Below, one piece after another: positions 52,237 to 59,720 of a stretch of DNA of 64,000 nt. The notes beneath the pieces were generated by a model, which was not told where the DNA came from, did no database searches, and saw nothing but the letters and a program-made list of their open reading frames with translations. This stretch comes from Sphingorhabdus sp. EL138 (lineage in GTDB: Bacteria > Pseudomonadota > Alphaproteobacteria > Sphingomonadales > Sphingomonadaceae), in contig NZ_CAMDCK010000001.1 of NCBI RefSeq assembly GCF_945890115.1, positions 1 to 64,000 on the forward strand, given 5' to 3'. Position 1 is the stretch's first letter. Every line of letters begins with the position of its first letter. The position numbers and the translations under genes were made by a program.

Positions 52237-53772
52237 TCAAGTTGTCGGCTTGTCCTGCTTTGCCCAATATTCATCGCGCAGCAGGCGTTTGTATAATTTT
52301 CCGGTGTCATGGCGTGGAAGCTCTTCGCGGAAATCAATGCGGCGCGGGATTTTAACGCCTGACAATTTTTCACGTGCGTAGGCGGCGAGTTCAGCGCGCA
52401 AATCATCGCCTGCGTCGGCCATGTCGAGTGGCTGGACCACCGCAATCACTTCCTCGCCCATTTCGTCATGCGGGCCGCCGATCACCGCGACATCGCGGAC
52501 GCGGGGGTGCGTCACCAGATGGTTTTCGATCTCTTGCGGATAGATATTAACCCCGCCCGAAATAATCATGAAGCTTTTACGGTCTGTCAGGTAGAGATAG
52601 CCCTCTTCATCCAAACTTCCGACATCACCAAGCGTGGTCCAGCCGTGTTTATTGGTCGCGCCTTTGGTTTTTTCGGGATCATTATGGTAACTGAATGACG
52701 CGGCGCTTTCGAAGAACACGGTGCCTTCTTGGCCAACCGGCACATCGTCGCCATTATCATCGCATATATGCATTGTGGCGTTCAGCGCGCGGCCTACTGA
52801 TCCCTTGTGCGTTAGCCACTCCTCGCTGGAGATGAAGGTAATTCCCTGCCCCTCGGTCCCGGCATAATATTCGCGCAGGACCGGACCCCACCATTCAATC
52901 ATCGCCTCCTTAATAGGGACGGGACATGGCGCGGCGGCGTGAACGGCGCTCTGCAAGCTGGACACGTCATATTTAGCGCGCACATCTTTAGGCAGCTTCA
53001 GCATGCGCGCGAAATGCGTTGGCACCCATTGGCTGGCGGTAATCTTGTATCTCTCGATAGCAGCGAGCGCGGTTTCAGGATCGAACTTCTCCATCACTAC
53101 GACCGTGCCGCCCAGGCGGTGCACCGCCGCACACCAGCGTAAAGGTGCGGCATGATAGAGCGGCGCTGGCGATAAATAGATACTATCGCCTGAAAATTTG
53201 AACGCCATCATGGCAAGGCCAGCAAGCACATTGGGTGCCGCTATATCGGCGTCTTCGGGCAGCGGAAAGCGAATACCCTTTGGTTGCCCCGTCGTGCCGG
53301 AACTATACAACATGTCAGTGCCTGCGCGCTCATCTGCCACCGGCGTGATCGGCATAGCGGCAACCGCATCAGCGTAATTTTCCCATCCGACATATGCGCC
53401 GCCAAGGATAAAACGCGTCACGGGGCTTTCAATCTGGTCCAGCACGGCGCCAAGATAAGGCGAGGCAAAAAGCGCCTTCGACCCGCTGTCCTTCAGGATA
53501 TAATCGATTTCGGACGCCGTAAGACGGCAACTGATTGCCACATAGATCAGGCCCGCCCGTTGCGCGCCCCAGACAAGATCGAAAAATTCGGCTCGGTTTT
53601 CGAGGCAAATTGCCACGGTGTCACCATGCTGAAGCCCAAGCGACCGAAACAAATGGGCGCACTGATTGGAACGTTCATCAAGTTGCTTATATGATATGGT
53701 CTCGCCTGATCCCGCCATGATGACAGCGGGCTTATCAGGGTTTGCGGCGGCGTGGACGGTCGGATGGCCCAC
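52237..53772 (-). CDS. AMP-dependent acyl-CoA synthetase
   Basis: DMLYSSGTTGQPKGIRFPLP, REYYAGTEGQGITFIS, GWTTLGDVGSLDEEGYLYLTDRKSFMIISGGVNIYPQEIEN; GTG start VGHPTVHAAANPDKPAV. Confidence 0.95.
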   Translation of the reverse strand: MGHPTVHAAANPDKPAVIMAGSGETISYKQLDERSNQCAHLFRSLGLQHGDTVAICLENRAEFFDLVWGAQRAGLIYVAISCRLTASEIDYILKDSGSKALFASPYLGAVLDQIESPVTRFILGGAYVGWENYADAVAAMPITPVADERAGTDMLYSSGTTGQPKGIRFPLPEDADIAAPNVLAGLAMMAFKFSGDSIYLSPAPLYHAAPLRWCAAVHRLGGTVVVMEKFDPETALAAIERYKITASQWVPTHFARMLKLPKDVRAKYDVSSLQSAVHAAAPCPVPIKEAMIEWWGPVLREYYAGTEGQGITFISSEEWLTHKGSVGRALNATMHICDDNGDDVPVGQEGTVFFESAASFSYHNDPEKTKGATNKHGWTTLGDVGSLDEEGYLYLTDRKSFMIISGGVNIYPQEIENHLVTHPRVRDVAVIGGPHDEMGEEVIAVVQPLDMADAGDDLRAELAAYAREKLSGVKIPRRIDFREELPRHDTGKLYKRLLRDEYWAKQDKPTT

Positions 53773-53773
53773 G

Positions 53774-54532
53774 TTACTCCCCCTGCCAGTTTGGTTTACG
53801 TTTTTCGGCAAAGGCCAGCGCGCCTTCGCGTGAGTCCTTCGATGCAAAAACAGGCGCACAAATTTCGCTCTGCTTCTGCCACATCTCCGTCGAATTCCAG
53901 TCGGGTCGTTCGTTAATGACCCGCTTGGTTGCAATCAGTGCCAGCGGACCGTTGGCGGCTATCTTGGCCGCAAGCTCAAGCGCGGCATCAATGGCGGCGC
54001 CGTCCGTCACGCGGTTTACAAAGCCTATTTCATAGGCCCGCTGCGCCGAGATAAAATCACCCGTCAGCGCGAGTTCCATCGCCATACGTTTACCGATAAT
54101 CGATGGTAAGGTCAGCAGACCACCCGCAGCCGCGACAAGGCTGCGCTTCACCTCAGGGATACCGAACTGCGCCTTGTCATTCGCCACGAGCAGGTCGCAA
54201 GCAACCGCAATTTCCATGCCACCGGCGAGCGCATAGCCCTCCACCGCACCAATGAGCGGCTTGGCCGGTGGCGATTCAATAAAGCCTGCAAAACCCTTGC
54301 CCTTGATGCTGGGCAGTTCACCGCGCAGAAAGGCCTTCAGGTCCATGCCAGAGCAGAAAGTACCGCCAGCGCCCGTGATGATGCCCGCGTTCAGGCTCTT
54401 GTCGCTGTCGAGCTGCTCCATGGCCGCAGCGACGCCTTGTGCCACCGCCTGATTGACCGCATTCTTGGCCTCGGGCCGGTTGATGGTGATGATCAGGACA
54501 CCGTCCTGAGCTTGGGTTAGGACTTCGGACAT
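53774..54532 (-). CDS. Enoyl-CoA hydratase (crotonase) family protein
   Basis: VLIITINRPEAKNAVNQAVAQGV, GAGGTFCSGMDLKAFLRGE, KPLIGAVEGYALAGGMEIAVACDLLVA. Confidence 0.95.
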   Translation of the reverse strand: MSEVLTQAQDGVLIITINRPEAKNAVNQAVAQGVAAAMEQLDSDKSLNAGIITGAGGTFCSGMDLKAFLRGELPSIKGKGFAGFIESPPAKPLIGAVEGYALAGGMEIAVACDLLVANDKAQFGIPEVKRSLVAAAGGLLTLPSIIGKRMAMELALTGDFISAQRAYEIGFVNRVTDGAAIDAALELAAKIAANGPLALIATKRVINERPDWNSTEMWQKQSEICAPVFASKDSREGALAFAEKRKPNWQGE

Positions 54533-57695: not shown

Positions 57696-58348
57696 ACTAC
57701 CTTTTCCAATGCAGGCGCTGGCACGTTCGCTACCAGCTTATCCCTAATCCAACTCTCCGCATCCGGCCAACGGTCCAGCCGTGCATGCGCAGACGCCGAC
57801 GGCTTCACGCGATCCCACAGCAACGGCTCACCAACAAAATGTAGACGCCAGACATCGGGATGTTGTTCGCCGACTGATTCATGCTGATGCGCCAGATCGT
57901 CGACAAAAACCGCTACGCTCGGCCGATATTCTTCGAGAATCCGTCCAAGCGCCTCGCCCTTGCCGCCTTGATTGCAATAGACTGGCGCATCGATGCCAAC
58001 GGCCCGCAGTTGCTCTGTCCGCGGTCCTGCGCGGTGGTCGAGCAGGTTGGTCAGAATGACGACATCGGCATGTTCACGCAGGCGGTTGAGGCTATCTACC
58101 GCCCCATCTATAGCCTGTTGCCGGTGCATTTCGGTATCGAAAAAACCATTGAGCAAATCCCAGACCCGCCCGCGTTCAACAACCGTGCCGTCATGCTTGT
58201 GGCGCAGCGCTTCACCCCAATCGCCATGGACGAGGTCGAAATGGATATGATGCGCCTCATCGAGCCAATCGCGAAAGGGCACGATCATATGCAACAACAC
58301 TTCGTCGCAATCTGAAATCAAAAGTGGCCGGGAATCACTGATACTCAT
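57692..58348 (-). CDS. HAD-family hydrolase-like protein
   Basis: RPLLISDCDEVLLHMIVPFRDWL, VVILTNLLDH, VAVFVDDLAHQHESV. Confidence 0.85.
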   Translation of the reverse strand: MSISDSRPLLISDCDEVLLHMIVPFRDWLDEAHHIHFDLVHGDWGEALRHKHDGTVVERGRVWDLLNGFFDTEMHRQQAIDGAVDSLNRLREHADVVILTNLLDHRAGPRTEQLRAVGIDAPVYCNQGGKGEALGRILEEYRPSVAVFVDDLAHQHESVGEQHPDVWRLHFVGEPLLWDRVKPSASAHARLDRWPDAESWIRDKLVANVPAPALEKVV

Positions 58349-58614
58349 GCTTCTAACTCCTGCCGCGCTTGCACCAATAAAGCGGGTGACACCCCGATGA
58401 CCGCCGCGCAAGCGACAAGGTCGGGCTCATACGCCTCCAAAAACGATAATATCGCGGCCTGCGTGCTGCGTTCCATGATGCTGCTGCGCAAGCCCTCTGG
58501 CGTGAGGCCCGTGAGCGACAATAAGCGCTCCGCCCGTGATTCTTCCATCAACGCCCAAGCCAATGCCTGGAACGCCATACCCGATGCGTCTAACTTGTCG
58601 TTTGTTTCATGCAT
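58345..58614 (-). CDS. DUF3572 family protein
   Basis: AWALMEESRAERLLSLTGLTPEGLRSSI ... AILSFLEAYEPDLVACAAVIGVSPALLVQARQEL. Confidence 0.88.
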   Translation of the reverse strand: MHETNDKLDASGMAFQALAWALMEESRAERLLSLTGLTPEGLRSSIMERSTQAAILSFLEAYEPDLVACAAVIGVSPALLVQARQELEA

Positions 58615-58666
58615 GGCTTTCGCTTAAGCCAAGGCACCCACGAACGCAAAGCGGGAAAAGGTCGGT

Positions 58667-59032
58667 ATGCGTAAAAAGGTGATGATCGTCGAGGATAATG
58701 AACTCAACCTCAAGCTGTTCACCGACCTTTTGCGCGCGCATCAGTTTACGGTCGAAGGTGTCCGCGATGGACGGCTGGCGCTGGAACGCGCGCTAAGCTT
58801 TGCACCTGACCTTGTCATCATGGACATTCAATTGCCGCATGTCAGCGGCATCGACTTGATTGAGGCGATGTAAAAGGACGCCGCGCTGTCGGCCGTCCCC
58901 GTGCTAGCCGTCACCGCTTATGCGGGCAAAGGCGACGAAGAACGCATCATAGCCGCGGGCGCAAAAGGCTATCTGTCGAAGCCAGTGTCAGTGATGAAGT
59001 TTTTGGAGGCGGTGCGGGGGATTGTGGGTTGA
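58667..59032 (+). pseudogene. divK: DivK-like single-domain response regulator interrupted by an in-frame TAA (58871-58873)
   Basis: MRKKVMIVEDNELNLKLFTDLLRAHQFTVEGVRDG...VIMDIQLPHVSGIDLIEAM-*-KDAALSAVPVLAVTAYAGKGDEERIIAAGAKGYLSKPVSVMKFLEAVRGIVG*; the same frame continues after the stop. Confidence 0.85.
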
Positions 59033-59048
59033 GCGAGAGGATACTTGA

Positions 59049-59522
59049 TTGACCAGTCGAGACGAATTGTATCAGAAGTTTGGGGTCACAGCAGAAGCGG
59101 CGCAGCTTTTTGAGACTGATCTCGGATCAATTATGCTTAGCGTTAACGGGCTAAAGCACGACTGGCACATCGCACCTGACAGAAGCGATGCTCAGAAGCT
59201 CTACGAAAAGATGGGGAAATTGACGCTAGGTAACCTGCTTCGCCAGACCTGCCAGGATGTTTCGTTTGACGACAACACTTTTTGTATTTTTGATGCCGCT
59301 TTGGACGCCAGAAATAAACTTTTTCATGGATTTTTCGAGCGACACAATTTCAAAATACAGACCGATGAAGGTCGAGCCATCATGATGGCTGACCTAGAAC
59401 AGCTGCACGATAAACTTATCAATGCATGGCGAATAGCTTCAGCCATATCGGCACATCTATTAGTTAAGTTAATTGCAGAGGTGGCTGAAACCGCATCAAA
59501 AAGGGCGCCCGAAGCGCCCTGA
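59049..59522 (+). CDS. Hypothetical protein with HEPN-like RNxxxH motif
   Basis: 157 aa, TTG start with AGAGGA SD; motif ALDARNKLFHGFFERHNF. Confidence 0.7.
   Translation: MTSRDELYQKFGVTAEAAQLFETDLGSIMLSVNGLKHDWHIAPDRSDAQKLYEKMGKLTLGNLLRQTCQDVSFDDNTFCIFDAALDARNKLFHGFFERHNFKIQTDEGRAIMMADLEQLHDKLINAWRIASAISAHLLVKLIAEVAETASKRAPEAP
59498..59521 (-). terminator. Rho-independent terminator of rpmG, embedded in the 3' coding end of the + strand gene
   Basis: Minus strand: AGGGCGC-TTCGG-GCGCCCT followed by TTTT. Confidence 0.8.
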
Positions 59523-59552: not shown

Positions 59553-59720
59553 TTACTTGATTTTGGCTTCCTTGAACTCGACATGCTTGCGCACGACGGG
59601 ATCATATTTGCGGAACGTCATCTTTTCGGTGATGTTCCGCGGATTTTTCTTGGTCACATAGAAAAAGCCCGTGTCAGCGGTGCTGAGCAGCTTGATCTTG
59701 ATTGTGGCTGGCTTCGCCAT
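59553..59720 (-). CDS. rpmG: 50S ribosomal protein L33 (not in the ORF track)
   Basis: Translation [55 protein letters not shown]. Confidence 0.98.

Follow-up and report, generated by a model that had tools for sequence, protein, structure and literature searches.

In Caulobacter, DivK is essential and acts via DivL on the kinase CckA, from which the signal runs through ChpT to CtrA. The Caulobacter crescentus protein (1M5T and others) is a single-domain receiver of ~120 residues; the frame studied here is collinear with it over residues 3–119 and has the same key set, E9/D10, D53, T83 and K105, but is stopped at codon 69, in a genome from which CckA and CtrA are missing. In the order Sphingomonadales, the CckA–ChpT–CtrA relay is kept while the DivJ–PleC–DivK branch has degenerated or been lost (Brilli et al. 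2010, PMC2877005), and ctrA can be lost from Sphingomonas melonis without harm to growth or viability, according to a 2021 study (PMC8116508) citing Francez-Charlot et al. 2015. Decay of the DivK branch thus has a described precedent in the order; the relay, however, was reported as conserved there, whereas in our genome CckA and CtrA are lost too. Pelagibacter and Granulibacter, which lack ctrA (PMC2877005), offer a further parallel as free-living lineages without the CtrA axis, although the loss described here is recent, lies within one genus, and has left visible remnants and a retained flagellar set.

The window analysed, a stretch of 64,000 nucleotides, comes from the freshwater bacterium Sphingorhabdus sp. 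EL138 (G000; 2.31 Mb, 37 contigs, 99.95% complete), and those of its relatives in the genome collection that bear names are likewise Sphingorhabdus, e.g., S. profundilacus. A first-pass annotation had described a DivK-like regulator split by one in-frame stop codon, and this is borne out by the translation and by stop-free, whole-length matches at 82–96% identity in 18 closely related genomes of the genus.

An interrupted divK frame

Positions 58667–59032 translate as a 121-residue DivK receiver with one TAA, at 58871–58873. The translation reads MRKKVMIVEDNELNL...SGIDLIEAM, then the TAA, its sole internal stop, then KDAALSAVPVLAVTAYAGKGDEERIIAAGAKGYLSKPVSVMKFLEAVRGIVG up to the normal stop. 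The locus comprises the following parts:

58345..58614, minus strand: DUF3572 gene, conserved divergent neighbour of divK, 90–97% identical beside divK or its scar in close relatives
58653..58661, plus strand: purine-rich GGGAAAAGG, possible ribosome-binding site of divK, read from the sequence, with a putative function
58667..58873, plus strand: 5′ part of divK, 68 codons and the premature stop, from translation; carries E9, D10 and the phospho-acceptor D53
58679..58685, plus strand: GTGATGA, counterpart of the upstream deletion repeat in relatives, from the scar alignment
58871..58873, plus strand: TAA in place of Gln69, which is CAA or CAG in 18/18 aligned relatives
58874..59032, plus strand: 3′ part of divK, 52 codons and the normal stop, from translation; carries T83 and K105
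58991..58997, plus strand: GTGATGA, counterpart of the downstream deletion repeat in relatives, from the scar alignment
59553..59720, minus strand: rpmG, conserved downstream marker of the divK locus, 98–100% identical beside divK or its scar in close relatives

The best solved relative of the translated frame is Caulobacter DivK (1M5T, E = 1.4e-33), followed by PleD (E about 4e-19). Assignment as a PleD receiver was rejected, as the frame ends at residue 121 and has no GGDEF output domain. NCBIfam yielded no model above cut-off for DivK and holds no useful DivK equivalog. A receiver domain of ~120 residues makes up a single-domain protein only when the stop is read as X, and the uninterrupted frame of a working DivK is broken by the TAA at codon 69. 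The acidic pair E9/D10, the phospho-acceptor D53, the switch residue T83 and K105 are all kept, divided between the two halves by the stop; the first-pass statement that the downstream half is in frame with its switch threonine and lysine was therefore correct. So was the assignment to the chromosomal divK from its neighbours, since the order DUF3572–divK–rpmG is common to many relatives in the genus, which places the frame at the orthologous position. The search that the annotation had proposed for a second intact divK found none in the genome, where the next best match is a 249-residue PhoB-like regulator at 29% identity. Eight HisKA kinases were found in the genome, and none of those inspected by reading of the sequence alone could be identified as PleC or DivJ.

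Several observations concern the surroundings of the gene. Between divK and rpmG lies a 157-residue ORF with a TTG start (59049–59522, plus strand) that has no Pfam or NCBIfam match and is absent from all relatives compared; in the relative G052 the same position holds a different insert, MazF/PemK-like by eye. The window has no tRNA gene. Near 7.7–8.4 kb the window has an intact gene upstream of a HAD-like gene; its counterpart in G058 (G058:C12:7319-8227, L319) appears disrupted. Elsewhere in the genus, G056 has a second DivK-like gene (G056:C22:418-780, 56% identical) that could be contamination, and the metal-binding D10 is replaced by Ala or Gly within an intact DivK frame in G006 (L022, ctrA-positive) and G017 (L018, ctrA-less).

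Origin of the stop codon and divK deletions in relatives

The first-pass annotation proposed a change from AAA to TAA at 58871. The alignment points to another ancestral codon: codon 69 is CAA in 14 and CAG in 4 of the 18 relatives and AAA in none. The mutation is thus read from the aligned codons as a C-to-T transition, CAA to TAA. Within the genus, divK was found in 36 of 45 genomes, and an internal stop occurs in G000 only. In a tree of 15 neighbouring proteins, G052 and G058 fall together with G000, and G003, G019, G004 and G053 form the sister group; the split inside the group of three has only 65% support. Over the 5′ part of divK, all 9 differences between G000 and G052 are synonymous and the encoded protein is identical, and alignment with the relatives revealed no other clear lesion in the G000 gene beyond the TAA. 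As a second lesion is lacking, the break is recent or, less likely, an error.

Other relatives have lost divK by a different route. In G003, G004, G019, G051 and G053 both neighbours are kept, and between DUF3572 and rpmG lies a scar in which the first few divK codons run straight into the last codons, GTGATGA marking the point where they meet. Where divK is intact, GTGATGA occurs at both ends of the part deleted in these genomes, ~312 bp apart in window coordinates, which suggests that the five relatives probably lost the gene by deletion between these short repeats. Judged from the sequences, their loss is independent of the stop in G000, since divK is unbroken in G052 and G058. Four further genomes (G009, G014, G020 and G046) were not counted as proven divK losses because their DUF3572 neighbour is also missing.

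The CtrA pathway in the genus

Queries for CtrA, CpdR, SciP and GcrA were approximate Caulobacter sequences, which bears above all on the absence of CpdR. Of the 45 genomes of the genus, 37 have CtrA at 72–79% identity; it was not found in G000, where the ctrA flanks are contiguous (C2:51020-52348 and 53328-54230) with nothing recognisable of the gene between them. Of cckA, whose normal place is just upstream of recA, the last 35 codons are left, and the gene is broken at the same point in G058. Only fragments of sciP remain (residues 40–72 and 90–108), and the approximate CpdR query gave no match in the genome. ChpT is intact and GcrA is present. Of the parts that an active CckA–ChpT–CtrA relay would need, G000 therefore retains an intact chpT, 35 codons of cckA and no ctrA.

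ctrA is also gone from G058, G023, G016 and G017, the last of which retains its final 15 codons. As the losses fall in three tree groups, at least three separate ctrA losses are likely. In G023 cckA is internally deleted, residues 1–35 being joined to 729–802 (C60, L270:15378-15700); the deletion apparently leaves a short fused frame of ~109 codons. A frameshifted ctrA in G013 was rejected because the apparent gap consists of Ns, and G057 and G052, the latter being the nearest relative of G000, were dropped as ctrA-less candidates because their ctrA slots lie at contig ends.

Constraint on DivK differs between clades with and without CtrA. By pairwise counts with few changes, as opposed to a codon-model test, DivK pN/pS is 0.35 in the ctrA-less clade C and 0.059 in the ctrA-positive clade D (Fisher p = 2e-4), so that constraint in clade C is weaker by a factor of about six; among the pairs of clade C are G057 and G059, two genomes with a non-contiguous ctrA slot in which no ctrA was found. 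The corresponding value in the ctrA-positive clade E is 0.019. Two control genes compared across the same pairs of clade C give a pN/pS of 0.14–0.15 (DivK versus controls, p = 0.03). The divK of ctrA-less G023 still looks constrained, with 1 non-synonymous and 15 synonymous differences from that of G007.

The contig that carries the window also has a flagellar cluster with an intact FlhA (G000:C1:127-163 kb, L311 and L312), and in it a sigma-54 activator of 443 residues with a degenerate receiver. Loss of flagella was considered as a reason for CtrA loss and fails in G000, which keeps FlhA and the cluster. We tentatively suggest, as a possibility with the odds against it, that flagellar assembly and the cell cycle proceed in this lineage in the absence of CtrA, CckA, CpdR, SciP and a working DivK, with GcrA retained, with an intact ChpT that serves another kinase or is next to decay, and with flagellar genes under the sigma-54 regulator encoded in the cluster.

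Explanations for the interrupted gene

The explanation that we consider likely is that divK in G000 became a pseudogene through a recent nonsense mutation, after the lineage had already dismantled its CtrA pathway; true loss had been one of the options listed in the first-pass annotation. CckA and CtrA would have been deleted before divK broke, the main output of DivK would have gone with them, and the CAA-to-TAA change would have been tolerated because that output no longer existed. The loss of CckA and CtrA would thus be the cause of the tolerance, and the broken gene presumably yields no functional DivK. This account has weak points. In G058, G016, G017 and G023, CtrA is missing yet divK is unbroken, so CtrA loss does not force divK loss, and clade B lacks divK but has kept CtrA and CckA, which means that the order of losses is not fixed.

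The alternative with most weight, although improbable, is a sequencing or assembly error behind which the true base gives CAA and divK is intact. Changing a single base would restore the frame, the remainder of divK looks constrained, and sister lineages without CtrA have an unbroken copy. When ~50 conserved window genes were compared with those of G058 and G052, however, only divK had an internal stop, other flagged stops lying upstream of likely starts or in last codons; this comparison speaks against a poor assembly, though a single wrong base would escape it. In addition, cckA, ctrA and sciP of the same pathway show unambiguous losses of multiple bases in this genome, and a sister clade has its divK deleted. 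The TAA is probably present in the living cell.

The annotation had also listed readthrough or suppression and a split receiver, neither of which gained support. Readthrough of the TAA, with some full-length DivK being made, would fit a downstream half that is conserved and in frame, but a recent break accounts equally well for that conservation; TAA usually terminates translation efficiently, suppression of a general kind would act on every gene, and codon 69 is not a stop in any relative. We regard it as very unlikely, and give slightly less credence still to a receiver made as two polypeptides that reassemble. Both halves do keep their key residues (E9, D10 and D53; T83 and K105), yet the first in-frame start after the stop is a GTG at 58901 that would begin inside strand 4 and has no Shine–Dalgarno sequence at a usable spacing, further in-frame starts lying at 58985 and beyond. 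Moreover, AAAAGGAC, which follows the stop, is ordinary coding sequence in the relatives, and no relative with a split divK was found.

With a recent pseudogene as the preferred reading, a conserved cell-cycle control pathway appears to have been caught in the course of being dismantled. A single genus holds complete, partly decayed and nearly empty versions of it, with related species differing by identifiable losses; the kind of event is known, but the record of intermediate stages is unusually complete, and it can now be addressed which components become dispensable first, which later, and what replaces them. The annotation had called a nonsense allele unexpected given that divK is essential in Caulobacter, an expectation weakened by the dispensability of CtrA in Sphingomonas melonis, by the degenerated or lost DivK branch in Sphingomonadales and by the absence of CckA and CtrA from G000; what is essential in Caulobacter need not be essential elsewhere. 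Among 201 near-complete genomes of the family, CtrA was found in 194 and DivK in 174, and these counts together with the published losses in Sphingomonadales indicate that divK loss is not extraordinary in the family. CtrA and CckA are lost more rarely, and their loss is the more interesting part. Several near-complete genomes without DivK, among them G067, G077, G087 and G128, have the most divergent CtrA of the survey, with E-values of about 1e-70 to 1e-100 in place of 1e-140.
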